Assembly (NCBI RefSeq): GCF_028583425.1
Contig: NC_072795.1
Coordinates: 73,856,001 to 73,920,000, forward strand
DNA length: 64,000 bases
From: Eublepharis macularius
Taxonomy: Eukaryota > Chordata > Lepidosauria > Squamata > Eublepharidae
Direction of reading: 5' to 3'
Shown: one piece after another, positions 10,152 through 61,512 of the stretch
How the letters are laid out: each line of letters starts with the position of its first letter
How positions within the stretch are numbered: the first letter of the stretch is position 1
Made by a program: the position numbers and the translations under genes
Notes under the pieces: model-generated
What the model saw: only the letters and a program-made list of their open reading frames with translations
Database searches by the model: none
What the model was told of the DNA's origin: nothing

Positions 10152-11978
<1,827 letters not shown>

Positions 11979-12150
11979 AAACTTGAAGAGGCTGACAGGA
12001 GAAGCCAGCATCAGCTTGAAAACTTGGAAAGAGAGCAAAGGTTCTTAAAGCGAAGACTGGAGCAGCTGCAAGGCTCGCAGGAGATAGAACGAATACGAAT
12101 GGACAGCACTGGATCCACCATATCCTCAGATCGCTCTGATTCAGAGCGGG
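11979..12150 (+). CDS. MXI1: MXI1 exon encoding leucine zipper and adjacent acidic segment
   Basis: The exon begins after the acceptor CATGGCAG and ends with G|GTGAGT. It is 172 nt: 57 codons plus one base that completes a glutamate with the next exon. The zipper starts [20 protein letters not shown] and continues [11 protein letters not shown]. The segment after the zipper includes IERIRMDS and the serine-rich SSDRSDSER. All are conserved MAD-family features and match MXI1 closely. The heptad leucines are intact, so MAX dimerisation should be preserved. Confidence 0.93.
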
Positions 12151-12855
12151 GTGAGTAGCTAAAAGACTCATAGAAGCTTTTCACAAACATTATCCTGATA
12201 AACCGAGGGAGGGGTGATCTTATTATAGATGTGATTTTGTAGGGGGATGTCAGGCAGGCAAGCCAGCCTGCCTGCCATACCTGTAAATGTATTTCTACTG
12301 GGGGGGATGGGTAGTGGGGTAGCTTTCCTCCTTCACTGTATCTTGCTTTGCTTGGGCCGAGTGGTGTTATCAATGCATCTGGAGCGGTGTGGGAACAGAC
12401 CTTGGGAATTTCAGCTCTGCGTCTCTTTCATGACTTTCATGCCAACTTCAACTGACTGAAGGGGACTGGAGGTATGACCTCTTGAGGACGACTTGGCTTT
12501 GGCATGCCAGGCAATTCTCTGAACTCGTGCACTACTAGGGAGCATAATAAAGACCTTTAACTCACACAACCGTGTTTGATGAAGTGGAGAGTCTTGAGAG
12601 AATCCCCTAGCGAGGCCTGACATTTTACCTGTGGCTTTTACTTGTGACTGTCGCAGCTGTCAGATAAAGATGCAAAGGGTAGAGAGGTCTTACACACACC
12701 TTGCTTTTCTTGGCTGCTTCATCCATTGTTTTAAGTTGGTTCAATGGACAAGAGGACTTGTTTCTGCCATCATCTAAATCTTGAATGCTCTGTGCATGTT
12801 TTCCTTAAACAGCTTCACAAATGATTCCAGATAACAATTTTAACCCATGGGGCTA
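12151..12855. other. MXI1 intron, start
   Basis: Intron sequence following the zipper exon. A short near-palindrome of GGCAGGCA and TGCCTGCC words lies at 12247-12281. Nothing else is recognised. Confidence 0.4.
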
Positions 12856-23574: not shown

Positions 23575-23660
23575 ACACCAGTAGCACCTTTAAGACTAAC
23601 CAACTTTACTGTAGTATAAGCTTTCGAGAATCACAGTTCTCTTCGTCGGATGATCTGCTT
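23575..23660 (-). mobile_element. Penelope-like terminal fragment with hammerhead-like motif
   Basis: Reading the minus strand from 23649: CCGACGA, a stem GAGAA/TTCTC closed by CTGTGA, then GAAA, then GCTTATAC and TA, followed by GTTGGTTAGTCTTAAAGGTG. The order matches a hammerhead ribozyme core (CUGANGA, stem II, GAAA, short stem III) as known from Penelope-like elements. The second base of CUGANGA is changed to C, and one pair of the tiny stem III is lost, so cleavage activity is doubtful. Confidence 0.6.
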
Positions 23661-27428: not shown

Positions 27429-27566
27429 TTACTGAGGCATTAAATGTCTGACATTGTACTTGGATGTATCTTGGTACTGCGTCATGGGTTTGTCTGCAAT
27501 TCCACATGTTCCAACTCCAACCTTCCCTGTTACACTCTCAGGAGAAGCAAAGATGCTCCGTTTTAC
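27429..27566 (-). CDS. SMNDC1: SMNDC1 exon 6, C-terminus and stop
   Basis: The acceptor TTGTTCCACAG precedes 45 codons and a TAA stop at 27431-27429. It begins VKRSIFASPESVTGKVGVGT, continues CGIADKPMTQYQ and ends RHLMPQ. This C-terminal segment is very strongly conserved in the family and is known to be important for interaction with spliceosomal proteins. The frame is phase 0 from the preceding exon. There are no odd substitutions or breaks. Confidence 0.95.
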   Translation of the reverse strand, partial: VKRSIFASPESVTGKVGVGTCGIADKPMTQYQDTSKYNVRHLMPQ

Positions 27567-27664
27567 CTGTGGAACAAAATAAAACCATAATTTGTATTCA
27601 TTTCTGAACTTCAAAGACACAAAATACTGCTAGTGATAAATCACATGAATATATGAAGCTGCCT

Positions 27665-29740: not shown

Positions 29741-30322
29741 GGTCAACTGAACCCCATCAATGGTATGAAAATGTTAGGAAATTCCAAGCCAGATGTCTTC
29801 CTATGTTGCAGGCAGCTGTTTCTGAATGAGTGTTTCCTAAAATCACAACATTGATACCTCCTGGACTCTTCCTGCTTCAATGAGTTAGTGGAAAGACTGT
29901 ACTGGCTCTTTACTTTGGAAAAGAAGAAAGTGGGTGCCAGGAAAGATATGCGCAGGCGCCATGTTATCAGTGTTTGCATTACTGCATCTTTAAAACTATA
30001 ATGCAGAGAGGGCCAGAAAAATCATAAAAACTGAGAAACGTGTACCTAAAAGATTACAGTATGGGAGCATCATAGGGCGATCAATATTCTCCAAGTTTTA
30101 CATGCACAACCGTCTAGCTTTCCATCATTTTCTTATCCTACTCTCAAATGACATCTATCTAACAACATATTAAAATACTATAAAAGAATCTCACTGTTCC
30201 TGCTTTGCCTGCAGTATTCTTTGCTTCTCATTGAGCAAGATATCCCAGTGGTGCTTTACAGTTGTATAACTCCTCTATAGTAAGTAACATGTATTTGCTA
30301 GATGCTAGCCGCCTGTACAAAC
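29741..30322. other. SMNDC1 intron 5, no recognised feature
   Basis: Intron sequence up to the donor of exon 5. No exon, RNA or repeat is supported. Confidence 0.4.
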
Positions 30323-30476
30323 CTGGCCCTTTTTGTTTTTTGAATAGGCTCTGTTGTTGAACTGCTGCCATTTGACTTTCTGATCCTCTCGCTCCTGCTC
30401 CAGTTCTTTGATTCGCTGAGCCTTTTTCAAAGCTTTCTTCTTTTTATATTCACGTTGCTGAGCAATCATTTCTTTC
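30323..30476 (-). CDS. SMNDC1: SMNDC1 exon 5, basic coiled segment
   Basis: The exon is 154 nt: one base completing a lysine codon and 51 codons. It encodes a long charged helix, KEMIAQQREYKKKKALKKAQ then RIKELEQEREDQKVKWQQFN, ending KNKKGQ before the donor CAG|GTTTGT. The lysine-rich stretch serves as a nuclear localisation signal in the family. Identity to the human protein is near complete as far as I can recall it. Confidence 0.95.
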
Positions 30477-31613
30477 CTTTAAAAAAGTACAGCAATTAAG
30501 TTACTTTTGTAAATCAATTTCCCTTAAAAAAAATCTAAGGATCATGGTGAGCTATAAAAAGAAACTTGCTATATAAGCAAACACTATGAGGGTATATTTT
30601 CATACCTCAGACATGATGGCACTATCTTGAGCTGATTAATCTTGTGTTAGCAGCCCTACATCCATACTTTTACCCACTTTACCTATCCCATTTTTGCATG
30701 ACCAGGAGCTCTGCAGCACTTCAAAGTAATGTTGTCTTCTGGACAGTTACTTCTATATAGCAACTGAACCAGAAGCCCTGCTTTAACTTCTTTTTTGGTC
30801 TCAGAACATGTAGACAAAAGCAAGGATACACCGATTAAGAGAGTCTCACCTTGGGATAGGTGAATGTAAAGATAAACTCTCAGTACAATGGGGCTTCAGC
30901 TGTCCAGGCCCATTTCATTCTCCAACTGTAGAAAGTGTTGTCATTCCTTCTGTAAAGCAATCTGTGCATTGCAAGTTTCAATAAAGCACAGCAATCCTAC
31001 TTTCATGCACTACTAAGAACACAGGCTCTTTTTAGAAATCATGTGAACTCTTTGCTAAACAGAAAATAAATCTGGGCTAACTCTGAATTTCCCAGGATAA
31101 AATAAGCTACCTTAACAGGCTCAAAACAACTGTCCTGAAAAAACAGAATGACTGCCCCCTTCCCCAGCCAAATTTAAGCAAGATGCTGAACAACCATTTT
31201 AAAATTCTGTGCCATAAAGCATAATATTAATTTCTATCATGATTTCATTTCTATCATTTCATTCATATTTCACTATTTCATTTCTATCATTATTTGCCTA
31301 CTAAATGACCACAACTGAATCAGCCCTGGGATATCAAAACTGTTTTGGATCAAGTTAAAAACACTGACCTAGTTGGGTCTACAAAAATTGGGCAGTTAAA
31401 CTCATATCCTAAACTTAATCCTAACAGGAAAGGGTGGGGGAGCTTGCTTACATCATCTCTTTATCATACACTATGCAGAGTAAATTTAAAGACTGTGCTT
31501 GCTGTAAAGCCATTTTGTGGAGGGATAATCCATTAGCAAGGATAACCTGAGTACAGCATTATCTTAACTCCTATATTATACACTGAAAACTGAAAACAAT
31601 TTCAGCTACTTAC
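30477..31613. other. SMNDC1 intron 4, no recognised feature
   Basis: AT-rich intron bounded by GTAAGT and TTTAAAG splice sites. A simple ATTTCTATCAT repeat lies around 31230-31290. Nothing else is recognised. Confidence 0.5.
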
Positions 31614-31775
31614 TTAGACATGGGTTTGTTGCCACTGTCTTCCTTTGCTTTCCTTCCTTCTTCCACAGGTTTCAGGTTCAACAGGGGTGTGACTTCAGCA
31701 TTGCCATATCCCGCAAAGGTGACTGCAGCTGTGCCATTTTCTTCATCTATCTCTTCAATTTCAGCTTCATAACAC
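31614..31775 (-). CDS. SMNDC1: SMNDC1 exon 4, Tudor domain second half
   Basis: The exon is 162 nt after the acceptor CTTTACAG and before the donor GTAAGT. One base completes a glutamine and 53 codons follow, ending with two bases of a lysine codon. It encodes the remaining Tudor strands: CYEAEIEEIDEENGTAAVTF and AGYGNAEVTPLLNL, whose aromatic residues (Tyr of CYEAE, Phe and Tyr of FAGYGN) form part of the methylarginine cage. The linker KPVEEGRKAKEDSGNKPMS follows. No defect is seen. Confidence 0.95.
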
Positions 31776-33162
31776 CTGTAAAGATATCATGGCTGTAAGC
31801 ATGTGAGTAAAGGTTTAACATTCAACCCTACAAACTTTCAGTTATTAATCTTAAAATTTAGCATATTTCTATTTCATTTTAGACTTGCATTCAAGTCAGA
31901 CCCAGGAATAAACTCTCTTTGTGTCACTAATCAGTAGTCTGGGACCTAACGTACTGGATGTACTATAAATTTGTGACAATATTAAAGTCCAAGAGAGTCC
32001 AAATAAAACTTTGGCTCCATATCTTATGCTACTGCAGAGACAAACATTGCCCCCCTGCAAAATATTTACTATAAAAACAGTTTTTTTCTGTAGGGACAAA
32101 TTTAGTTAACTGAATTCTGAGGATTAATCCTTGGAAAGACCAGGCTCTAATTTTCACTAAGGTTTCTCAACAAGAAAGTAATTTAAAATGTAATTTAGTA
32201 GCTACTCCACTGATGTATTCTTAAGCAAGAACTAAACACTAATATGACAAGAATGGCACTGTGCTAAGCAACACTGAAAGAGAAAAAATAGTGCTTTCTA
32301 CAAAGCTAACTTTAAAGAAAACATTAAAATATATAATGGATAGCTCTGAAACAGGTTTACAGTGATGAATATTTGAAGATGTTAAGAATACTGTGATGAA
32401 AATAATGCTTATTCTATGTTTATAATTTAATTCCTCTGGTATAATTTACATAATATGTGCATCTATGCACGAACAATAAATAATTAAAAACAAAATACTC
32501 CACTTATGTTAAAAGGTGTGCTCTTCATGGAGATTATTTGGTTTTTTTCCCCCAAGAACAAGCTCCCAAACTTAAAAGCATCTGAATACACCAGTTTGTA
32601 TTTATATCACTGTGTTTATCTGTGCAGTCATCCTAGGGGCCAAGGTAGGAGACAAGCCCTGCCACTGCTCAAAGGAAGCAGTTGACTGTTCTCCCCAAAC
32701 CCAACCATGTCATGCCGCTAGAAGCTGAGGCAGCACACAAGCCCTGGCCCAGGATCTGCCAGGGAACTGTGTTGGCTGCATTCCACTAAGCCAACATGCT
32801 CCCACCAATCAGGAGGACTCTGGGGAAGCTGCCGAGGGAGACGAGAGCTTGCTTGCTTTCTTGCACACATGAAAGCACCGCCTGCAGTCATTCTGGAGTC
32901 AAAGGGGGAGAGGGAAGAATTGGGATCAGAGACAGCATGCTCAATTGGCATATCACCTTTGAGCCCAGGTCCTCTTTGTAACTGTCAGCCTTTCCATCAT
33001 CCCTGAAGCAAGATCTGGGTAGAAGGACTGAGCTTATAGTCAATGCTCAACTAGGCTGATCCTCCTCAAAAGGTGGGGAGAGTATAAACCAAAGGGAGGT
33101 ATCTTACCATGGAATTGAATTATTTCATGTAACTTTTAGAGAAGTTTGTTTTCTACACTTAC
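31776..33162. other. SMNDC1 intron 3, no recognised feature
   Basis: Intron sequence with no clear repeat. A GC-richer block at 32610-33060 might be a decayed insertion but cannot be classified. Confidence 0.4.
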
Positions 33163-33305
33163 TGTCCATCTTCACTCCATATTGCCATACATCTGTCTCC
33201 AACCTTCCAAGTGTGAATAGGCAGAGTAGAAGCAGAACTATCAGAACTTGTAAGAGTTTCTGAAGGTTGTGTTGAAAGGAGGTCTTTGGTTAATTCTATA
33301 ACTTC
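33163..33305 (-). CDS. SMNDC1: SMNDC1 exon 3, linker and Tudor domain start
   Basis: The exon is 143 nt after the acceptor CTGTCCAG and before the donor ACA|GTAAGT. It carries 47 codons plus two bases of the glutamine finished in exon 4. It encodes EVIELTKDLLSTQPSETL, a serine-rich linker, and the first Tudor strands WKVGDRCMAIWSEDG, including the cage tryptophan of AIWSEDG. Residues in the serine-rich linker vary from the human protein, as expected for a flexible region. Confidence 0.95.
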
Positions 33306-33552
33306 CTGGACAGAAAAAAAGTTTTCAGTCAATGTTAAAGTCTTCCCCACACTCCTGAAAACTCAGTGCCTGACATAATGCTGGTAGGCAAGAAGGAACT
33401 TGCCCATGTGTTCTTTCATGCACCCAGTGTTTCATTTGAACTGTGTTGGCTATGCATACAGTGTTGTTAATATGTACAGGATTAGCATTCTACTGAAACA
33501 CTCACTTAGCCTACGGATCTCTAGCATGCTAAATTTGCCTATAAAGCAGTCA

Positions 33553-36177: not shown

Positions 36178-36972
36178 CTAACACCTTCTGAATGGACTTA
36201 GCTGACTAGAAATGATTAGATCCTCGTTATGGTCTGTAAGAAGGTAGCTCTTTCTAAAGACAAAAATGCCCTTCCCTCCACAGAGTCTAACCTGGCTCCA
36301 ATGAAAAGTATGTTCTGAGAAGGGGATCAGAGAGGATTTTTTCCAGTTGACTAGGAGACCTAAAGACAATATGGTCTGAAGTGTCAAACGTACCTGATTG
36401 GCCAGGCGATCTCTTGACTGAGCAACTAAAAGCCAGTTGTCAAGGTACAGATAAATGTGGCACCCCTTGGAGCTAAGAAATCCCACAACAGCAGCCATGC
36501 ATTTCATGAAGACCCTGGGGGCTGAGGACAACCCAAAGGGGAGGGAAGTTTATTAAAAGATGTGTGTACTATATAGAAACCTTAAGTATCTTCTGTACTG
36601 AGAATGGATGCTTATGAGGAAATAGGCATCCTTAACATCTACAACTGCAAACCAGGAACCAGTTTGCAGGAATTGAATGACAGTGGACAAGGTTAACATT
36701 CTAAACTTTTCAACTTTAATGAACTGATTTAACTGGCGGAGGTCCAGAATAGGCCTGATTCCACCATCCTTTTCATCAACTAGGAAATATCTAGAATAAA
36801 ATCCCATCTGGGATTCTCCAGACGGAAAGGCTTGAATGGCCCCTTTCTGCATTAGTTCAGTAATGACAGCATATAGCTGAGGTGAAGTAGGGACCGTAGA
36901 GCAGCCCAGAGGGGTCAACGGTAGCAACTCCTGAAAGTGTAAACAATAACCAAACTGAACAATGGAGAGCAC
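36178..36972 (-). pseudogene. DIRS reverse transcriptase, broken
   Basis: Two minus-strand frames cover the palm. The N-terminal part has ELMQKGAIQAFPSGESQMGF, YFLVDEKDGGIRPILDLRQL and VDVKDAYFLISIH. The C-terminal part has CMAAVVGFLSSKGCHIYLYL then DNWLLVAQ. The catalytic box reads YLDNW where DIRS enzymes usually have YLDDW, so one metal-binding aspartate is lost. Stops separate the two parts. Confidence 0.82.
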
Positions 36973-39599: not shown

Positions 39600-42515
39600 C
39601 CCGTGTGACATTTAAATCAGGCCTTATCCAGTATACATCCATACTAGTCCCGAGCTGATGCACACAGCACCATATCCCACTTCAAGAAATGCATGGCAGT
39701 TAGGTAACCTTGCAGCAGGAGGATCAAGAGTGCCATACAGAAATCACTCAGCTACATTTTTTCTTTGATTAATTATAAATGTGATTTTATCGCATGGTAT
39801 ATGAGCATGGATAATGCACGGAAGTAATGCAATTTTAACAGCTATTTAAAAATAAAAGATAGACTACAGAAAGGGGCAGGCAACTGCTTTAGTGGAAGGA
39901 GAGAGACTTGCCAGTGTTGCAGTTTCACATTGCCCCTGCTGAAGAAGGGATTATTGAGCCTTTCAAAAAGAGTTAATATTAAAAATTAATTTAATGTTTA
40001 CAAACTGGTAATTACAAGAGGAGAAATACCTCCTTTGTCATTGATGATGTTCATGAGCCAGCAAATGTTTGTTGCAGTCCCATAACCAGTTTCTCAGCAA
40101 TTTAACTTTTTTGTTTGAATACCAGGTAACTATACAATCATCTCAGATAAACACACACACAGAAAATAACATTTTCTCTAAAAGATATCTATAAATAGTA
40201 ATCCATTTGCTTCCAGCTCATATACAAGCAAAAAGAAAAAAGTGATTTAATACAAATATATTTTATGATGTGACCCTCTTGTCTTTTGCTCTCCAAAATT
40301 GACAGTCAAGTACAGAACTTTGTGGAAAAGGCCAGTTTCAAATGAGAATGTGGCAAAGAAAATTAGCAGAACAGACCTTATAATAAAAGCCTTTCATATA
40401 ACATGGCGTAAAGAACAGAAGGAGAACCAGAACTAATATTGAACACACTTGAATCATATTCTAAAGACCATATGAAGATTCTAAATAATGTGTTAAGCAG
40501 CACTAAATGTTTATATTTTTCTTCGGCAATTCAAGCGTAGTATTCTGTAACTTCTTTAAAAAATGAAAATCCAAAGGAATACAGACATTCAACACTGAGA
40601 AATAAAATAACTAACATGTAGCGACCTGAAAGAACTTGTGGGGCATCTCATTTTCCCTTCTCCCATCATGTTCTCTTTCCCTTCCTTACCTCCAAAAGCC
40701 TCTTCCCCCACTTCCTGGTTCCTTCTCTCTTTCCCACCCTTCTTGCTGGGGGGATTTCACTTTCCCCTCTATCCCCTTCCCAACTCTTGGATTCTACTCT
40801 GAAACACTAACCACTACACTACACTGGCTTTAGTGGGGAAACCAAGCCTGAAATACTGGCTGAACTGTTATGGTTGCCGAGCAAGAGCCATTGAGGGCCT
40901 CTAGTTAAAGCGTCTTTTATCGTTTTGGATTTTTAAAACCCCCAATGTATTTATTTTTTTTAGACTTCAGATTTTTCTGCAAACTGGTGGCATTTTTCAG
41001 GTGTGTAGAAAGATCTGTCATGTCCATTGTGGCAGATTGCACATTTTAAAAAGCCTGGAAGGGCTATACAGCTGCAGGACTGTTAAGAGTTAATCCTTCA
41101 CAGAATCAGAGAGCTTTGAGTGATAGGCTAATCCAAGGGATCCGATTGGGTAGCATAAACTGGAAAGAGGAGGGTCTGTTTTTAGTCCTAGCAGAAAGAG
41201 GAATCAAGCGTGAAGAGTTGGGAGACAGAGTCCTAACGGACAGCAGTTTTAACACTGGCAGGAGAACAGGAGAAAGTTGGCAAGGAAGTTTGAGAAGTAG
41301 GAGCAGACTCCCAAACAGGCCAGAGAAAGGGGACAGATCTTCCAAGGAGAGGAGATTTTCCCTACCCAGTCAAACAGGGAGGTAGCTCTGGAGAGAGGGT
41401 TGGAAACTGCCTGTGAAGACAGTCAGATTCCATTAACGGCTGAAGGAAAGCACTGGTGTTTGGAGAGAAGGAGATTGGAGTACTAGAATGTGGGTACCAG
41501 CATTCCTAACTCCAAAAGTGAGAGAATACTAAAAGAAAGTATACTAGAGTGCTTGGGGAAAAACAAGAGAACCAAAGCCTCAAAACAGAAGTCTTTAAAT
41601 ATCTGTGAAGAGCGTAAGAGCTGAAGTCTGTGCATGTTCTGATTTTACCATATATAATTCAACATATATATATATAATTTATACACACACACACAGACAC
41701 ACACATACATATACAAATACAAAATTTTAAAAATGCCTCTGGTGCCATTTCTGTTGTTTAAGGATGAAAGAACGTCATATCCGTTTATGGCTCCAGTCTC
41801 CAGATTTAAGTATCCTCAGATCAGGACCATTTGGCTATTAGTATATTAGATAAGCACTACTACCAGATTTTGATTTTTAAGCACATCTAAATGGTCAACT
41901 TCCAAGACTTTAAGACAAATAAATATGTAATTAAAACTAAACCATGTTTCACCGTAATAATGTATTTTTGATAGAATATTTTAAAAATGGAAACAATATC
42001 TTGCATTGTAACTAAGTAGCTTTCCCAGGATGATTGTAATTAGTTAATGAGTTACCGTTTAATGAAACCCTCTGGTGCGGTTCCCTACTCCTGGAACATC
42101 CTCCACCTTTCCCCATTTTGACAAACTTAGGGGTGGCATGCTAACAGGGGCCAAACACTTACACAATGCCTCTCTAGCCACTTCACTACATAGGGACAGA
42201 CTGTACAGATTACCACCTCTGCAGTTTACAAGTTCTTTTCCACTTTAAAGGAGGAAAGCCACAGTGAAATCCCACCTCACTCCAGCTGTTGCAAACTGAA
42301 TAGGAAGGGAGTGACCGTGCTGCACACTGCATCCTTTAAAGTGGCGAAATGCTTGTAAATACCAGGGCAATAACTTTCGACTGGCAAACATTTTCTTCAT
42401 TTAGACATGACCAGTCCAGGAAACACTGCCCACATTCTAATTTGGCAACATGTGTAATTAGTGACATCCTCACATGCTATACAGTCTCTGACTGGCTGGG
42501 CTTGGAACCTCTCTA
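39600..42515. other. SMNDC1 intron 2, unclassified sequence with a CA repeat
   Basis: No exon is supported. A short TA/CA microsatellite lies at 41662-41712. A purine-rich block at 41070-41460, with overlapping open frames on both strands, looks repeat-derived, possibly LTR-like, but has no diagnostic motif. Confidence 0.35.
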
Positions 42516-42521
42516 AAAAGT

Positions 42522-42720
42522 AGAGAGTCCAGTAGCACCTTTAAGACTAACCAACTTTATTGTAGCATAAGCCTTTGAGAACCACAGTTCTCTTTGTCAG
42601 ATGCATCTGACGAAGAGAGCTGTGGTTCTCAAAAGCTTATTCTACGATAATTTTGGTTAGTCTTAAAGGTGTTACCGGACAGTTTACTATTTTGCAACTA
42701 CAGATTAACATGGCTAACTC
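42522..42720. mobile_element. Head-to-head Penelope-like termini with hammerhead-like motifs
   Basis: The block is an inverted repeat centred on CAGATGCATCTG (42597-42608), with arms of about 80 bp. The plus arm reads CTGACGA (42607), a stem-loop GAGAG-CTGTGG-TTCTC, AAAA, then GCTTATTCTA and GGTTAGTCTTAAAGGTG. The minus arm reads CTGACAA, a stem-loop GAGAA-CTGTGG-TTCTC and GGCTTATGCTA. Both follow the Penelope-like hammerhead order, but each has lost an invariant core base, so neither is expected to cleave. Confidence 0.6.
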
Positions 42721-42966: not shown

Positions 42967-43086
42967 CTGTAAGTCTTTCTTTAATTTTAGTAAATCCTCA
43001 TTATCTCCATTTCCAGTTAAAGCAGCTTCAACTTGTTGGAGCTGAGCTTTATAGCTAGCTAATTGTTTTGCGAGGTCTTCGGACAT
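42967..43086 (-). CDS. SMNDC1: SMNDC1 exon 2, start codon and N-terminus
   Basis: ATG (43086-43084) directly follows the acceptor CTGACAG, and 40 codons run to the donor CAG|GTGAGA. The sequence MSEDLAKQLASYKAQLQQVE then AALTGNGDNEDLLKLKKDLQ forms the N-terminal helical segment of SPF30. The start is chosen because it equals the conserved family start and no in-frame upstream coding sequence exists. The 5' UTR is in a separate upstream exon. Confidence 0.95.
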
Positions 43087-43189
43087 CTGTCAGAGAAAAA
43101 TTATTACCAAACAGAAGGTAGTACAAAGCATTTGAAAAACTGGCTTCTGAAAGTAACATGGTCACTTCAAAGTTAAATAATTAACAATG

Positions 43190-43270
43190 GCACCCTAAGC
43201 AGTTATACGCTTCTCAGCCGATTTATTTTAATGGGCTTAGAAGGATGTAACTTTGTTTAGGATGGTACTC
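43190..43270. repeat. Palindromic MITE, diverged copy
   Basis: CACCCTAAGCAGTTATACGC on the left mirrors AGGATGTAACTTTGTTTAGG on the right. It is an older copy of the 86-bp palindrome at 63111-63196. It lies in SMNDC1 intron 1, just upstream of exon 2. Confidence 0.6.
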
Positions 43271-44490
43271 TCAGTTTACAGAATTCTACTGCAAGTCTCT
43301 ACTTTCAACATGAACCAAGTTTAAAAAGATCAGTGATATTTCAATTTTTCATCAATATTGTTGGATGTATTTATTAATATCTGTCCTTCTGCCCCATTTG
43401 ATACTTAAAACAGTTTAATTTTTTTATTTAAAACTATTATGATCAACACATAATTTATTACTAAAAACAATCATTCTACCAGCAGCAAATTCTATGACAC
43501 TAAAACCTTGGCAAAACATTATTATCTTGACTCATTTCTAATTTCTTTAAGAAATTTTTATCAGGAAGGCCTGGGCTTAATCAATCTTATAAAACTGACA
43601 AATTCATTCATCAACCATGTAGTTTCTGATATTGAAGACATATGAAGCAAGACTTCACATGAAGAATTCCTGAATGAGAGGATACGTATTGAAGTCAAAA
43701 AAGCACAATCAACTGTGTCTAAAACCAACCAGCACCCAATGCAACTAGTTTAATAACAGCAAGGTATGATATCTGCAATAAGTCAATTATTTTATTTTAG
43801 AAGACTGATATCCTGTTTTTATTATTTGTGGGTGCTTCAAGTGATCAATAATTTTTAAAAAACAACAATAATTCAATGGTAAGCAAATGCTAACAATAGA
43901 GCTGCAAACCAGATTTAAAACCCAAGGAAATAAAATGCCATTCCATTTTTTGCTCTGAAGAAATCTGCCTTCACATTTCTCAGCAGGAAAACCTGTAAAG
44001 CAAGGGATAGATGCACCCCCTGTGGGTGAATCAACAGCTACGCAGTCCAAACTTGACTTTCCAAAGTTTTATCAGCAACCATGTTAAACATGTTGTCAGT
44101 AATTAATTTACTGAATCACATTCCTTCCTGTGGCTGGTTTCCCCTACTAGTTCATCAGTGCTAAACCACAGCATCACATGCAAATTTGAAGTCCTGATGT
44201 CAACAGTGCCAGGAAGGGGACCAACCATTTATGAGACTTACAGAATTTTGCACATGCTCAAAAAGAAACACACATAGTCAGAAGTGATAAGTTTTGGCTC
44301 ACTGAGTGTTATCTCATGCTTCTCAGCCACCCCTTCTCCTTGCTTCAATCCTCTAAAAAGATTCTGGCTTGACTGTTTGCCAACTTGAAGTTACCTAGCA
44401 CATAAAACTGGAAGTTCTGTCCCTAAATTCACATAATCAGATGCTGACCTTGATTACTTAGTGGTGAGAGAAATAAATATTATGTACTTC
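43271..44490. other. SMNDC1 intron 1, no recognised feature
   Basis: AT-rich intron sequence. No exon, RNA gene or repeat is supported. Confidence 0.4.
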
Positions 44491-44494
44491 AGGC

Positions 44495-44700
44495 AAGTCT
44501 GATCTCATCAGATCTCAGAAGATAAAACGGGCAGCCTTGGTTAGTAATTGGATGGAAAACCTCCAAAGAAGACCAGGGTTGTAGAGGCAGGCAATGGCAA
44601 AGCCCCTCTGTTAATCTCTTGCCTTCTTGCCTTGAAAACCCCAGCAGGGGGTTGCCATAAGTCAACTCTGACATGATAGCACTTTCCACCACCACAGTCC
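44495..44700 (+). repeat. 5S rRNA-derived SINE
   Basis: The head AAGTCTGATCTCATCAGATC and then TCTCAGAAGATAAAACGG, GCCTTGGTTAGTAATTGG and GGATGGAAAACC follow the interior of 5S rRNA. The body has AGGCAGGCAATGGCAAAGCC, and the end is GTTGCCATAAGTCAACTCTG then ACATGATAGCAC. It is longer at its 5' end than the copy at 2099, so it shows the 5S origin better. Confidence 0.85.
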
Positions 44701-45304
44701 CTATGCTATAGGTCATTTATAGTCACATTTCCAAACCAGAATCCTGGAGCAGAAATGACAAGTAAAGCTGCCACCATCACAATAGTCTCTCATTCTCAAC
44801 CATTCTCAATTGTTTTGGTACATCAAACAGCCACACAGCCACTATTTGGCCAAATTTTCTTCTCTTAGCCTTAGTTTCCCATCTGTATAAGGGAATGAAT
44901 TGGGGGTCTTGAACAGATTGTGTTTAACAAGCTTCTACTACAGACTAATGAACTTGTAGAAGTCACTTTAGATGGAGGGAGGTGAAAATCTGGAATGTAG
45001 AAGGAGAGCATCCAACTTAATGGTAGCACTTCCTTTCAAAAGTCAAAACCAGCAGCAATCCAGACTGACAGGTCATATATAAGTCCAACAACTAAAAAAT
45101 ATAAATAAAAATAACTACAATGATATGCTGTATATTAGAAATAATGGTTTAAGTTGAGAAATAGAGTGGATACACAAACTGTAAAAAGCAAATTGCCTAG
45201 TGTTACTGAGAAGATGGAGGCACGAATGTATTACTGCCCCTGTCCCCCTCCTCCACCACAGTGCCCAGACTTACTTCTACAGGTGTTGAAAAATATGGCT
45301 AGCA

Positions 45305-45631
45305 TAGAATAGTAATGATATCAGCTTATGTAATTCATTAATGTTGTAGAGCACTTGAGACATTTAACAATCAGATCTTGACTGTTACTCAGTAATAATA
45401 CCTGATTCATGTGTTACCAAAACCTGTAGCTGTTGCTTCTTTATATCTAAATCTTCACCCAAACATTACTGGTGGGGCAGAAGATTTAGATATAAAGAAG
45501 CAACAGCTACAGGTTTTGGTAACACATGAATCAGGTATTATTACTGAGTAACAGTCAAGATCTGATTGTTAAATGTCTCAAGTGCTCTACAACATTAATG
45601 AATTACATAAGCTGATATCATTACTATTCTA
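45305..45631. repeat. Perfect 152-bp inverted repeat with 23-bp loop
   Basis: Arm 45305-45456 (from TAGAATAGTAATGATATCAG to TATATCTAAATCTTC) is an exact reverse complement of arm 45480-45631 by base-by-base reading. The loop 45457-45479 reads ACCCAAACATTACTGG and on. No repeat family is recognised inside and no ORF is present. It lies in SMNDC1 intron 1, so the pre-mRNA could fold into a 152-bp duplex. The alternatives are a recent template-switch or inverted duplication, gene conversion, or an assembly artefact. Confidence 0.95.
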
Positions 45632-46190
45632 GGGATGAAGGGAATGAAGATAATATCTCTGTTCTAAGCACATACACTTGGATACAAGCTCCACTGGAAA
45701 CAAATAGGACTTGTTCCTAAATAAAAAGTGATCAGGGTACAAGAAACTGGAGCCACATCAAGAAATCCACAAAAGCGCTAACATCAAATTCAGTAATCTT
45801 GAAGGCTTTGACTTGTACTTTCCCTTTTTAACTCCAAGAAGTTTTAATTAAAAGTCTCACAGGTTTGACACAGATGCAACTGCAATTATTAAGCTCTCTC
45901 TCTTAAAAAATACTCTGATGATGATGAGCTTCACTTTATTATTTGATACATTTGTCACATTAGTAGCAATTTACATACACAGCACGAGTTATTCATTCCC
46001 GCCATCAGCTCCTTGAAAGAAGAGCAGGACAAAAAAGTATCAGAAAGAATTATTAGGAAGCTTCAGCTAATTTCCAAAGGGAAATCAAGAAGGTGGAAGC
46101 ACAGACTGAAATCCTGGAGAAAACAGCTATTATAAGCGAAGAATTCATCATGAGGAGTGAAAAAGCCAGAAGAGGGCGGACAGTCAAAGG
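45632..46190. other. SMNDC1 intron 1, no recognised feature
   Basis: Intron sequence between the inverted repeat and a promoter-proximal MITE-like element. Nothing is recognised. Confidence 0.4.
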
Positions 46191-46194
46191 TCTC

Positions 46195-46412
46195 GGGTTG
46201 CCAACCTCCAGCTGGGCCCTAGAGGTCTCCCAGAATTACAACTGATCTCCAGGCGACAGAGATCAGTCACCTGGACGAAAATAGCTAATTTGGAGGGTGA
46301 CATCTATGGCAATATACCCTGGTGTGGTCCTTCATCTCCTCAAACCCCGCCCTCCCTAAGACTCCACCCCCAAATCTCCAGGATTTTCCCAACCTGGAGT
46401 TGGCAACTTCAG
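46195..46412. repeat. Non-autonomous repeat with GTTGCCAAC termini
   Basis: The left end GGGTTGCCAACCTCCAGCTG and the right end AACCTGGAGTTGGCAACTTC are near complements over about 15 bp. The body has ACAACTGATCTCCAGGCGAC and CCCCAAATCTCCAGG. This is an abundant type of dispersed element in lizard sequence, consistent with a MITE. It lies in SMNDC1 intron 1, within 300 bp of the non-coding exon. Confidence 0.7.
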
Positions 46413-46692
46413 GCCTCCCTCCCCTTTTGGGACACAAAGCCCATGGCACTCAGGAAGGCTTCAGAAAGCAGCAAGAGAGGAATGGAGAGGAGGGCCAGCA
46501 CCGCAGAGAAGAGGAAAGTGGACCTACAGAGGCCCGGAAAGGAAGGGCGCCAGGCCAAAGAAAGAACCATGGGGGAGCAAGCTCCAGAGAGGCCTGGCGC
46601 TCGGGGCTCGCAAAGAGTCGGCCAAGGCCGCGCTCCCTTCGGGCGGAACTCGCAGAGGGAAACGCCAGGAAGCGCCAGCGCCCCGGCCTCAC

Positions 46693-46860
46693 CTTGGCCT
46701 CGCGCGCGGAGGGCCGTTCTCGGTTTCGTCAGGCCTCGGCGAAGGGCTCTGCGCGCGCAAGTCTCCTTCCTGCTGCTCCTAGCGACGCCTTCGAGAACCC
46801 GGTCGGCTGAAAGGAAAGATCGCGAGAAAGTCGCGCAAGGAGAACGGGAACTGAGGGGCC
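46693..46860 (-). other. SMNDC1: SMNDC1 non-coding exon 1, inferred
   Basis: On the minus strand the CpG-rich block ends in CCAAG|GTGAGG, a good donor, at 46693/46692. Exon 2 begins exactly at its ATG, so a 5' UTR exon is required upstream. The 5' limit is a guess based on the end of the CpG-rich block. Confidence 0.55.
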
Positions 46861-46863
46861 GTG

Positions 46864-46871
46864 TCACGTGA
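46864..46871. promoter_or_regulatory. Palindromic E-box TCACGTGA
   Basis: GTGTCACGTGACCAC lies at the upstream edge of the SMNDC1 CpG block. CACGTG with flanking T and A is the class of site bound by USF, TFE/MITF and MYC/MAX or MXI1/MAX dimers. Occupancy is unknown. Confidence 0.55.
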
Positions 46872-47149
46872 CCACTGCCGGTTGCACCAAGGAGAGGCAA
46901 CAGTAACGTGGTTCAATAGATATTTCAGGCTCTCCGGCGCGGGCTGGGTCATGCTTTACGTGCAAGGAAATAACTGGCGAGTGTACAAAGGAGCTTGAAT
47001 AATAACTCTTTAATATAACAGACGTGTAAAATGTCGCGCGGGGGCTGGGGGAGTGAATTTCGTTGTGGTGCTTTTTGACGTAATCTTGTTCTCTAATCAA
47101 AGAAATTTTTACTGTCAGGGTTTCCGCTTTTTCATTCTGGGTTTCAGTT

Positions 47150-47300
47150 AATACAAAATGAAATGGGGAAGGGGTAAAAGCCGGAATGGGCATTAAACAA
47201 ATAGTGGTACTGAAAAGAACAGTGGGATGTATTAAAGACATTGGAGAACAGCATTTTAGAAATGAAAACATGAAAATATCATGCTTTTATAACCTTTCCC
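47150..47300 (-). repeat. Isolated unit of the roughly 155-bp repeat family
   Basis: The reverse complement matches the tandem units at 60.8-61.3 kb, sharing TACCACTATTTGTTTAATGC, GGCTTTTACCCCTTCC, ATGTTTTCATTTCTAAAAT and related words. Overlapping open frames here and at 61229-61423 are parallel by descent and not coding. Confidence 0.65.
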
Positions 47301-53231: not shown

Positions 53232-56200
53232 TTTTTTTTCCAAATAGTATTTTATTTGGATTTTAAATTTCAGTTATCAATGATAACTACAACAACAGTA
53301 AACACCAACAGATAATTAACAATAAAATATTGTTACAACTTGAATAAAAAGCACACACAAAAAGTAAAAATAGAAAATAAAGTGAGAGTTATCATCACAT
53401 CTCTTGTTCACAGTACCCAGGTTACTTATATCCTAATAATACAAGAAGAGAATCGATATGTACAATGGTTAAAGGTATGCCATAGAATAGTAGAGGTCTT
53501 ATTTTATTTGAGGACCATTTTTCCTCTTTAGTCAAATAATCTAAGATTAGAAGCCATTGTTCCAGAAAATATGACTTGTAGTTCGGGTTTTCCCTCTGCG
53601 CCAGTTGATCAGTGATTTTCTGCATTATAAAGTGGTCTCAAATTCGAGATTTCCAGCTACTTACAGATGGGGCAGATTTTTCTTTCCAATATGAGGCTAT
53701 TGTTGATTTTGATAATGCCAAAAGCGAATAGATAAGATTCAAACTAACTGTTGGGATCTCCGGATCTTCCCAAACATTGAATAGGATTACTTCTAGAGAC
53801 TTCGGGATCATATATCCTGTTATGAAGTTAATTTCTTTAAGTATTTTATCCCAAAACAAGCTAACATATCTGCAGTCTCACCAGCAGTGTAGATATGAGC
53901 CTAATTCACCACATTGCTTCCAGCAGATGGCAGACTGGGAATGATTGATGCGGTGCAGCCTGACTGGTGTCATGTACCAGCAAGAAATAAGTTTTAGGGT
54001 TTGCATCTTTATGTTTACTATGTTTGATCGAAAGTTGAGTGAATTCCAAATTAAGTTCCATTTATCAGTTGAAGGGTCAAGAGTACATTCCTTAAACCAG
54101 ATATTTTGATAAGAAAGAGCTGTATGATTTTGTTTTTTTCCGAAGAGGATTAGGTAGATTTTGGATAATATGCCTTTCAGTTTTTCTGGTCTTTCTTTCA
54201 GGAGCTTTTCAAAATCTGTTAGGGGTTTATCTAATGAATCTTTAAACTTAGTTGATTCTATAAGGTGTTTGACCTATAAATATTCATACCACGGAATGCG
54301 TGACTCGGTATTTATTTCTAATTTTGATTTTTCTTGGAAGTTCCCTTTGTCAAGAATGTCTATTATGCGTCTTTTGTTGTTAATCCTCCACCACTTATAT
54401 GAATACATATTATAAGCTGGGAGAAACCAGTGCTGTTCCACAAAGGGAGAAATTCGGGAATATGGCCTAATTAATTTGCTTCTGAGTCAGTCCCAGATCT
54501 TTATGTCACTCATTAAAAAAGGGTTAATATGTAGATTGGGTGGGCGTTCATTATTCTTATTCCATAAGCATTCGTTTAAGGGTCTACCTTCTAAATAGTT
54601 TTGTTCGATAATCTTCCAATCGGGTAGCATAGAATCATTAGCTAACACTACAGAGTTTTTAAGGTGAGTAGCCTCGTAATATGTTTTTAAATCTGGTAGG
54701 TTGAGGCCACCCCTAGTGGATGGTCTTTTTAGGGTATCCAATGAAATTCTGGGCTTTCTGTTATTCCAGATGAATTTACTAATTTTGGTTTGCCACTGAT
54801 TAAAGGTTTTATTTGGGATTGTAATGGGTATAGCACGAAACATAAAGAGGAATTTAGGGGAAATTAATGATTTAATAAGGTTGATTCTTTCTATTAAGGA
54901 GAGATAGTTTTTTCCTCACTCCTCCAGCAGTGTATCGATTGAATGGTTAATCTCAAAGTAGTTAATATTCAGTAGATCTTTCAAAGTAATTGGTATTTTA
55001 ATTCCCAGGTACTTCCAACATTTTTAACCCATTTATAATTATAGGTGCTACTAATGAGATTGGATAGGTCAAGGGGCATATGTATTGGGTAGATTTCACT
55101 TTTGTTTTTGTTGATAGATAGGCCTGAAGCTTTTGAAAATTCCAGCGTGATTGTCTCTAATTTTTCCATAGAACGTAGGGGATCAGATAGGTATAATGCC
55201 ATATTGTCGGCAAATAAAGAAAGTTTATATTCCTTGTCTCCAATATTAATTCCTTTTATGTCAGGGGATGCTCTGATATGAGTTGCGAAGGGTTCGATTG
55301 CCACTGCAAAAAGGAGTGGGGAAAGTGGACAGCCCTGCCTAGTACCTCGGGACAATTTAATTTTTCCTGGTTTGTGTCCATTGATTTTGATTTGGGTAGT
55401 GGGCTAGTGTAGAGTGTTTGAATTGCCCTTAAAAAATTATCTCCAAAATTCATTTTCCGTAGTAGGTCTTTAAGGTAAGTGATTTCTACATGGTCAAATG
55501 CTTTTTCAATGTCAAGGGCTAAAATAAGCGAATTCAATTTGTTCAGTTTTCCATAATTAATTATATTTAATGTTTTCCTTATATTGTCTGTGAGTTGGCG
55601 ATTTGGGATGAAGCTGGATTGATCTATGTTGATATAATTTGTAATAATTTTATTCAGTCTGGCTGTAAAGATTGCTGTGAAAATCTTCATGTCCTGATTC
55701 AAAAGAGTAATTGGGCGATACGAAGCAGGATTAGTGGAATCTTTGTCTGGTTTTAAGAGGATCACCGTATTCGAATCAGCCCAGGAAGAGGGCATTTTCC
55801 CATCTTCCAAGATTATGTTGCAGACTTTGGTGAGGTGAGGAGCCAGTAGGTATGAGAATTTTTTATAATATTCTGCAGGGAATCCATCATTGCCTGGGGA
55901 TTTGTTATTTTTTAGTTTTTTGATCACCTCTTGAGAGTCTCTTTAATTGAAATTTGCTTATCAATTAGTTGTTTGTGGGCTTCTGTCAATTTATTATGGA
56001 TCCCTACTTTTTCTAGATAGTTATTGATTGTTGTTGTATCTGGGGTGTCTGATTTGTATAGATTATTATAAAAGTTTTGGAAAACATTTATGATAGATTC
56101 TGTTTTTGCTTGAATTTGGTCATATTCATCCCTTATATGATTTATAAAACTTGTAGCTCCCCCCCCCTCAACTTTCCAAGAAAGTAATTTTAAATTTTTA

Positions 56201-57224: not shown

Positions 57225-57654
57225 ATAACAATGTCAACTTCAGTCAACAAAAGAATGAAAGCAACACACACACACACACATATACGCACAGCCCCACCTG
57301 CCCCATGAAAAGAAAGCAGAATGAACTCAAAGCAGCACACACACACACAGAGCTCCCACCTCTCACGGAAAGAAAGCAGAATGAACTCAAAGCAGCACAC
57401 ATACACACACAGCCCCACCTGCCCACCCCGAATGAAAATAAAACAGAATGAACTCAAAATAGCACACACATACAGAAAACCCTGAATGAAATGAAAGCAG
57501 AATGAACTCAAAGCAGCTAAGCCTCCTCTTGAGAGCCAGCCCCAGCAGCTCTGCTTGCTCTCTCTCCCTCTCTTCTCTCACAGAGGAATGAGAAGAAAGC
57601 AGAATGAACTCAAAGCAGGTAAACCTTCTCAGGAGAGCATGCACTGGGCCCCAG

Positions 57655-57694
<40 letters not shown>

Positions 57695-58015
57695 CTCAAT
57701 CTCTCTCTCATAGAGGAATGAAAAGAAAGCAGAATGAACTCAAAGCAGCACATGTACACACAAAGCCCCACCCACCCACTCCCCCAATGAAAATAGAATG
57801 AACTCAAAGCAGCACATACATACACAGAAACCACTGAATGAAAGCAGAATGAACTCAAAGCAGCTTAGCTCTCCTCTGCAGAACCTGTGCCGAGGCCCAG
57901 CTTGCTCTCTCTCTCTCTCTCCCCCCCCCTCCCCGAGGAATGAAATAAAAAGCAAAATGAACTCAAAGCAGCTAAACCTCCTCTGCAGAGCCTGTGCTGG
58001 GCCCCAGCTTACTGA
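57225..58015. repeat. Compound minisatellite with CA and CT tracts
   Basis: About nine copies of a core GAAAGCAGAATGAACTCAAA followed by GCAGC recur at uneven 50-110 bp intervals (near 57322, 57377, 57444, 57499, 57600, 57733, 57794, 57846, 57953). Between them lie variable CA runs, CT runs (57658-57691, 57903-57921) and CCCCACC(T/C)GCCCAC words. Minus-strand open frames rich in CFEFILLSFH are translations of this repeat and not genes. Confidence 0.88.
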
Positions 58016-58419: not shown

Positions 58420-60810
58420 TCTTTCTTTTTTTTAAATAGATTTTTATTGGATGGGTCAATATATAATCAATTTTGAATACAAATACATTCCATTTCAATT
58501 CCCCTGTGTATATTTCCCCCCCTCCCCTCCCCCCTTTTCGATAGTGACTTCCAACAGCACTCCAACCCCCCATTATTAATGATACCTTATATAAAGTTGT
58601 TCTGTTATTAGTAAAGATCTTAATTATATCTTATCTTACTTAATTTCTTTAAAACTCCTCGAAAGACCATAATTGTCCCTTAACATCCCATTTCTTTTCC
58701 ATATATTTTTTCAACTTTTCCAATCTTACAAAAATACATCTGGATCTTGCTCCTTCAAATTTCTTGTTAGTTTGTCCATTTCAGCCATGTACAACAATTT
58801 CCTTGTCCATTCTTCGATTTCAGGTATTTCTTCTCTCTTCCAGTACTGAGCATATATTATTCTAGCTGCTGATATCATATAATATAACAATATCTTATCA
58901 TTTCTATTAACATCTTTCAAATGCAATGATAATAATAACAATTCTGGATTTTTTGCAACATTATAACGAAGTATCAAAGACATCTCAGTACATATTTTGG
59001 TCCCAAATTCTCTAGCCTTACGACAAGTCCACCACATATGAAACAGAGAACCTTCAAGCTCCTTACATTTCCAACACTTATTAGATAGCTGTTTGTTGGC
59101 TATGGCTAATTTTTTCGGTGTTAAGTGCCATTTATATAACATTTTATAGCCATTCTCTCTAATACTGGTACATGTTGATATTTTTAAAGTATTTTCCCAT
59201 AATTGTTCCCATGCTTCCATCGTTATTTCATTATTACAGTTTATAGCCCACTTTACCATTTGCACCTTGACTGTTTCATCTTCTGTAAACCACTTCAATA
59301 ACAATTTGTACATTTTAGAAATTATTTTACTATTATCTCCCAACAATAATTCTTCTAGCTCTGAATTCTTGGTTCTAAGGCCTGTTTTTCTTTGGTCTGA
59401 ATCAAGTAAGTCTTTGATTTGTCTATATTGCAACCAACCATATTTGAATGGCAACTCCTCATTTGGTTTAAGGTTCAACTCATTATTTGTGACTTCTGTT
59501 AAGTCTTTGAGAGTAAGCCATTCTTTTCCTTTATATTCTAAGTTTGGGTTGATCACCTCAGCTGGTATAATCCAAAGTGGTTTCTTCTGGTCTATAAATT
59601 TTTTGTACTTTAGCCAAGTCAACAATAAATTACTTCTCAAATGTGCTGAAACATTGCGTCCACTTTATACTTATCGTACCACATATATGCATGCCATCCA
59701 AATAGTTTATTATAACCTTTCAAAGTTAGTAGTTTGTGATTGGTTAAAGACACCCATTCTTTTAGCCAGACTAAACATATCGCTTCATGGTAAAGTCGAA
59801 GATCAGGTAACTGCATTCCACCTCTTTCCTTAGCATCACAAAGAACTTTCATATTTACTCTTGGTTTCTTTCCTGCCCACACAAATTCCGATATCTTCTT
59901 CTGCCATTTTTCAAATTGTTTTTTGTCTTTTACAATTGGTATTGTTTGCATTAGGAACATCATTCTAGGCAACACGTTCATTTTGACTGTGGTAATTCGA
60001 CCTAACCACGACAAGTTTAGTTTATTCCATTTTATCATATCTCTTTCAATTTGTGTCCAGAGCTTTTCATAGTTATTCTTAAATAAATCAATATTTTTAG
60101 CTGTCAGCAATATTCCCAAATATTTAGTCTTGTGTACCACTTCACAGTTTATTATTTCACTTAGTTCCTGTTGTTTCTTCTTGGTCATGTTCTTAGTTAT
60201 TACTTTTGACTTCTTTTTATTTATATAGAAGCCTGCCAAATCTCCAAATTCCTTAATTTTTTCCAGTAGTCTTGGCAGAGTTTGTAATGGATCTTCTACT
60301 ATAAACATCACATCGTCTGCAAACGCTCTTAACTTATAGGAAGATCCCTTTATTTTTATTCCTCTTATGTCATCATCTTCTCTGATCTGCCTTAGTAATA
60401 TTTCTAAGATCATCACAAATAACAACGGTGATAGTGGACATCCTTGTCTTGTACCTTTTCTTATTTCAAACTTCTCTGTCAGGTAGTCATTGACACAGAT
60501 TGTCACTCTTTGTTCCTTATATATTGTTTTTACTGCTTCTATAAATTCTTTGCCTAGGTCCATCTTTTCCATTGATGCGAATATAAAGTCCCAGTTCAAG
60601 TTGTCAAAGGCCTTCTCTGCATCTGCAAAGAAAAAGCCAACTTCTTTGTCTGGTTGCTTATCAAAATATTCAATGGCATTTATAACCACTCTCAAGTTGT
60701 CCTTTAGTTGTCTGTTTGGTAGGAATCCAGCCTGGTCTTCTCCTATAAAGTCCATTAGCCATATTTTAAGCCTGTCTGCTAATATTCTTGCCATTATTTT
60801 ATAGTCATTG
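58420..60810 (-). mobile_element. L1, 5' truncated, relatively young
   Basis: It is flanked by the 15-bp duplication TTCCTGCTGTTTCTT (58405-58419 and 60811-60825). The 3' end at low coordinates has an A-rich tail on the minus strand. About 2.4 kb remain, starting within the reverse transcriptase domain. It interrupts the 155-bp tandem repeat, so it is younger than the array. Confidence 0.9.
58726..60794 (-). pseudogene. L1 ORF2 reverse transcriptase and C-terminal part, one frameshift
   Basis: Minus-strand frame 60794-59637 encodes 385 residues: ADRLKIWLMDFIGEDQAGFL, PNRQLKDNLRVVINAIEYFD, FFFADAEKAFDNLNWDFIFA, KGTRQGCPLSPLLFVMILEI and LRAFADDVMFIVEDP, with the catalytic FADD box intact. Further on come KKISEFVWAGKKPRVNMKVL and GGMQLPDLRLYHEA. 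A single frameshift near 59640 leads into a 304-residue frame with the C-terminal cysteine region (NKCWKCKELEGSLFHMWWTC). The N-terminal endonuclease is missing. ORF2p would nick DNA and reverse transcribe L1 RNA. Confidence 0.9.
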
Positions 60811-61512
60811 TTCCTGCTGTTTCTTGTGATACTAGCATTTCTTTAATTTCCATTCCAGCCTGTTCCGTGGTGTTCTGGGAGCATTTGTCAGGGAAAGGGT
60901 TAATAAAAGCATGCCAGTTCATTGTTTTCATTTCTAAAATCTTCTCCAGTGCCTTTAATGCTTCCCACTGTTTCTTGTGGTCCTATCATTTCTTTAGTGC
61001 CTGTTCCAGCCTGTTCTGTGGTGTTCCGGGAGCATTTTAGGAGGGAAAGGGTTAATAAAAGCATGATGTTTCCATGTTTTCATTTATAGACTACTGTTCT
61101 CGTGTGTCTTTATCTCTTCCCACTGTTTTTTGTGGCACTAGCATTTCTTTAGTGCCCGTTCTAACCTATTCCGTGGTGTTCCAGGAACATTTTGGCAGGG
61201 TAAAGGTTAATAAAAGCATAATATTTCCATGTTTTCATTTCTAAAATTTTATTCTCTGGTGTCTTTAACACATCTCGCTGTTTTTTGTAATACCACTATT
61301 TGTTTAATGCCTGTTACGGCCTGTAACGGCTTTTACCCCTTCCTGTTTAGATCTATACATGTAGCAGAAGGACAGAAATCCTTCTCTTTTTGCCTGAATG
61401 AAATCAAATGTTCAGAATATTAACAGGATTCTCATTGCCAATGGATTGAAGGTGAAAGAAAAGGTCAGAAAAGTGCCCGCTCTCCTGACTTTCCACAAAC
61501 CATGCAAAAATT

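Follow-up and report, generated by a model that had tools for sequence, protein, structure and literature searches.

Short-range template switches yield perfect inverted repeats, and in a gold-standard set of 1503 such events from great apes the reverse-copied length is at most 128, with a median of 12 (PMC7954356). For RNA hairpins, another study argues that a single switch can create a stem and also that existing stems are fixed in this way; the largest template-switch-like pattern that it gives for rRNA, at 59 bp, failed quality control (PMC8794818). Fold-back events in yeast strains are longer, with medians of 160 bp for the inverted fragment and 30 bp for the spacer. They are found chiefly in strains without the flap nuclease Rad27 (rad27-deleted), and also in FEN1-associated cancers. 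Each is a triplication whose junctions share about 6 bp of microhomology, and neither wild-type yeast nor the 15 human genomes studied yielded any small inverted triplication (PMC13334657). The same study describes the progressive loss of inverted triplication structures from plasmids, which suggests that long hairpins may not persist easily (PMC13334657).

Long inverted arms are also familiar from two other settings. Palindromic MITEs and fold-back elements have such arms around a short loop, with TA at both ends, while inverted Alu pairs in introns give rise to intronic double-stranded RNA, a possible substrate of ADAR.

The inverted repeat described here lies in a 64-kb stretch of the Eublepharis macularius genome (the window), with repeat motifs suggestive of a squamate reptile. 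Its left arm (45305..45456, plus strand) is 152 bp long and free of CpG, the spacer or loop occupies 23 bp (45457..45479), and the right arm (45480..45631, minus strand) is the exact reverse complement of the left, again 152 bp. An inverted-repeat search together with a test of string equality gave 100% complementarity of the arms across 152 nt with a gap of 23 nt, in agreement with the original prediction of perfect arms of that length and spacing. The ends are sharp, since pairing fails at the next position both outwards (45304 A against 45632 G) and inwards (45457 A against 45479 A), and TA stands at both ends of the repeat (TA...TA). When 20 windows of 64 kb were simulated under a first-order Markov model, exact inverted repeats whose arms stood up to 1 kb apart reached a greatest length of 12-15 bp, against 152 bp in the real window. 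The pair is also the sole one with 100% identity among the 10 inverted pairs of at least 60 bp listed for the window (seed 14), the remaining nine ranging from 74 to 94%.

The repeat appears to sit within the first intron of SMNDC1, a 5'-UTR intron on the minus strand. Exons were placed by tblastn with a human SMNDC1 query, which gave minus-strand coding exons at 27432-27569, 30320-30478, 31613-31777 and about 33162-33308; the end of the last is an estimate, as the match (33162-33419) includes non-exonic alignment. The first coding exon (42967..43086, minus strand) is 95% identical to the human query over residues 1-40. An acceptor-like CAG directly precedes the SMNDC1 ATG, and a donor-like AAG/GTGAGG is found inside a CpG-rich stretch (46601..47200; CpG observed/expected 1.08-1.12) that is likely to hold the promoter and a 5'-UTR exon ending at 46693. 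These two sites would delimit an intron 1 of 43087..46692 (minus strand) that contains the repeat, as had been claimed. Both arms thus lie well inside a single intron, with the putative donor about 1.1 kb away and the putative acceptor about 2.2 kb. Elsewhere in the window, an open frame at 11766-12155 (plus strand) has a Pfam match to MAD (PF05557) below the cut-off. It resembles MXI1, a neighbour of SMNDC1 in human.

The arms are single-copy in every collection searched. The window's own assembly (2,236,738,225 bases in 72 contigs) was queried with the arm, which returned its own two places only, and with the left flank plus arm (45180-45400) and the right arm plus flank (45560-45800), which at E up to 10 returned this locus only; all three results come from a search that skips very common words. 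The arm has no further match beyond 13 nt in the window (E up to 1), and the arms have none elsewhere in a 264-kb sample (E up to 1e-5). The 2 kb on either side contain no exact copy of any 11-mer from the arms or the spacer. The claim that the arms resemble no repeat family was therefore borne out in the window, the 264 kb and the assembly. As for the proposed comparison of the arm with multi-copy elements, the single-locus results of the arm and flank-plus-arm queries argue against a multi-copy MITE. With these results and no match elsewhere in the 264 kb, such an element was set aside as the leading idea. A viral or phage source was likewise rejected, as the phage collection held no match to the 327-bp unit and viral_contigs no exact match to one 30-mer of the arm.

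The 264-kb sample consists of the window and 20 stretches of 10 kb, taken non-randomly at round positions: 14 from the window's contig, four of them directly adjoining the window, and three each from two other contigs. Five inverted pairs with arms of at least 100 bp, identity of at least 96% and spacing of at most 100 bp were found among the best 40 of 84 pairs in this sample, namely the SMNDC1 pair, L006:1665-2014, L010:8933-9196, L013:2170-2425 and L023:2281-2538. All but the SMNDC1 pair, which has no further match, are multi-copy, with 8-15 further matches in the 264 kb. Two of these multi-copy pairs, L010:8933-9196 (102 bp) and L023:2281-2538 (126 bp), also have perfect arms, so that perfect arms alone are not unique here.

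The 264 kb were then searched, at E up to 1e-5, with arms from 19 of the 84 pairs, drawn from the best 40. Matches elsewhere numbered 2-15 for 13 of the 19 and zero for six, the SMNDC1 pair included. The other five match-free pairs are L011:6357-6860 (200 bp, 94%, spacer 104), L010:5929-6146 (108 bp, 91%, spacer 2), L008:6331-6706 (63 bp, 100%, spacer 250), L022:354-1147 (112 bp, 92%, spacer 570) and L020:4713-4817 (45 bp, 89%, spacer 15). Among these six match-free pairs of the 19 compared from the best 40 of 84, only the SMNDC1 pair has perfect arms of over 100 bp. Near-perfect, short-spaced inverted repeats are not rare in this genome; the SMNDC1 pair is distinguished by having long perfect arms of single-copy sequence.

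Several other repeats of the sample deserve a description. The arms of the inverted pair L006:1665-2014 are 161 bp long with a spacer of 28 and a mutual identity of 99.4%, and the other sampled matches of at least 90 bp reach at best 90-91% over 97-100 bp and 84% over 145 bp. Because its arms are more alike than either is to the other sampled copies (at most 91%), this pair may be a second local inverted duplication, arisen inside a repeat family. The palindromic pairs L023:2281-2538 and L013:2170-2425 have arms of about 125 bp and a loop of 6 bp, and in L005, L007 and L024 their family is represented by single arms (96-99% identity); it has perhaps been active recently. A head-to-head palindrome in the window (42515-42692, 85%, no spacer) belongs to a family common to L010:8933-9196 and window positions 23578-23652. 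The window also carries retroelement reverse-transcriptase fragments (Pfam RVT_1) on the minus strand at 36181-36549, 55259-55942 and 59640-60842, and complex tandem arrays with periods of 60, 102 and 353 bp at 57275-58008.

The repeat was probably left by a single, fairly recent replication error, a fold-back template switch that set an exact inverted copy beside the original. The growing strand would have turned back on itself, or moved over to the opposite strand, and copied some 152 bases of adjacent intron in reverse before returning to its own template, leaving the exact copy 23 bases from its source too recently for the arms to have diverged. One such switch and return is suggested by the exact identity of the arms, their sharp ends, the different single-copy sequences that flank them and the lack of a third copy in the searches made. 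The exact arms and single-copy flanks thus favour the very recent inverted duplication by template switching that had been put forward. Two features expected of template switches are present: the copy is an exact reverse complement close to its source, and the copied unit is local rather than a dispersed repeat in the 264-kb and assembly searches, the latter skipping very common words. By eye, the junctions have 0-1 nt of microhomology whichever arm is taken as the original, so that microhomology is uninformative as a pointer to the original arm; any homology that primed the fold-back would be hidden inside the arms.

Compared with the described systems, the locus shares with the switches of great apes and RNA hairpins a reverse-complement copy made locally, beside its source, with a perfect hairpin possible in one step. 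It differs in scale, since its 152 bp exceed the great-ape maximum of 128 as well as the median of 12, and the present case is read from one genome. The fragment and spacer are close in size to those of the inverted triplications of yeast and FEN1-associated cancers (152 and 23 bp here; medians of 160 and 30 bp in the yeast strains). However, no third, direct copy was found, and the visible microhomology of 0-1 nt contrasts with the 6 bp or so given there. These contrasts weigh against the template-switch reading, as do the length beyond the great-ape maximum and, from the literature above, the 59-bp limit in rRNA, the lack of triplications in wild-type yeast and human genomes, and their loss from plasmids. 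An inverted triplication was rejected, there being no exact 11-mer within 2 kb on either side and no third place in the assembly search. Unlike palindromic MITEs and fold-back elements, the repeat is confined to a single locus in the assembly searches and has no flanking direct repeat beyond a possible TA. Unlike inverted Alu pairs, its arms are fully identical, and the searches made linked them to no repeat family.

At a substitution rate of about 0.8e-9 per site per year, zero differences in 152 pairs would, at the 95% level, make the duplication younger than about 12 million years. Both the switch and this age are inferred from the sequence. Identity of this degree is not unusual for an event so young, and thus neither selection nor gene conversion is needed to account for it.

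Other origins are less likely. An older inverted repeat might owe the identity of its arms to gene conversion, or to template switching that recurs between them. For short repeats, such homogenisation of the arms through template switching is described in PMC8604942, and the fixing of existing stems is argued in PMC8794818. This upkeep is nevertheless unlikely here, because identity is total up to sharp ends with no paired shoulder, and because zero differences in 152 pairs call for no special explanation below about 12 million years. Somewhat less likely again is an assembly or library fold-back artefact, with only one arm present in the animal. A copied artefact would yield exact identity, but the assembly, with 72 contigs for 2.24 Gb, was probably built from deep long reads; moreover, a simple fold-back would run on into the reverse complement of the flank, whereas both sides of the repeat exit into different single-copy sequence, so that an artefact would need a second switch as well.

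A low-copy palindromic DNA transposon, either a MITE or a fold-back element, would explain the TA at both ends as a hidden target duplication, and near-perfect, short-spaced pairs that are multi-copy do exist in this genome (e.g., L023:2281-2538 and L013:2170-2425). Such an origin is very improbable given that the assembly search, with very common words skipped, returned no second copy and that the 264 kb held no match elsewhere. By eye, no direct repeat adjoins the ends, but a TA duplication would be masked by the palindrome. The least probable of these readings, to which we give hardly any weight, is a hairpin kept by selection, as a young microRNA or siRNA precursor or as an element of SMNDC1 splicing control; this would be compatible with a template-switch origin. 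The sense strand is predicted to fold into one very stable 152-bp stem (-268.6 kcal/mol, z -35.9 against 100 shuffles), but duplication alone accounts for this stability, as it would for any duplication of the kind. The window has no Rfam match at the gathering score, and the arms lie far inside the intron, at the distances from the predicted splice sites given above.

At the RNA level, a known structured RNA was rejected on the same null Rfam result, and ARAGORN found no tRNA. The SMNDC1 pre-mRNA can form a duplex of 152 bp, which is probably a bystander. It is possible that the duplex affects splicing, and A-to-I editing or dicing of it is possible as well. The backsplicing that had been proposed for the transcript is unlikely to be driven by these arms and was rejected on anatomy: they share a single intron, and the 23 bases that separate them include no exon. 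Template switching is reportedly a source of de novo miRNAs, the subject of a 2023 paper. On a far more speculative reading, to which we attach very little probability, the hairpin would truly exist, have reached fixation and serve a function. The first intron of this splicing gene would then encode a double-stranded RNA of 152 bp, of very recent origin, that is diced or edited and so feeds back on the output of SMNDC1, and local inverted duplications of this size would keep arising in the lineage (L006:1665-2014 being a possible second case).

As a lone case without shown function, the repeat would be ordinary. If real, it would offer a clean case, found in nature, of long fold-back duplication within vertebrate DNA that is single-copy, exceeding the longest event of the great-ape gold-standard set (128 bp, PMC7954356). 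With a chromosome-scale assembly at hand, close relatives could reveal how frequently such hairpins are born and how well they persist.
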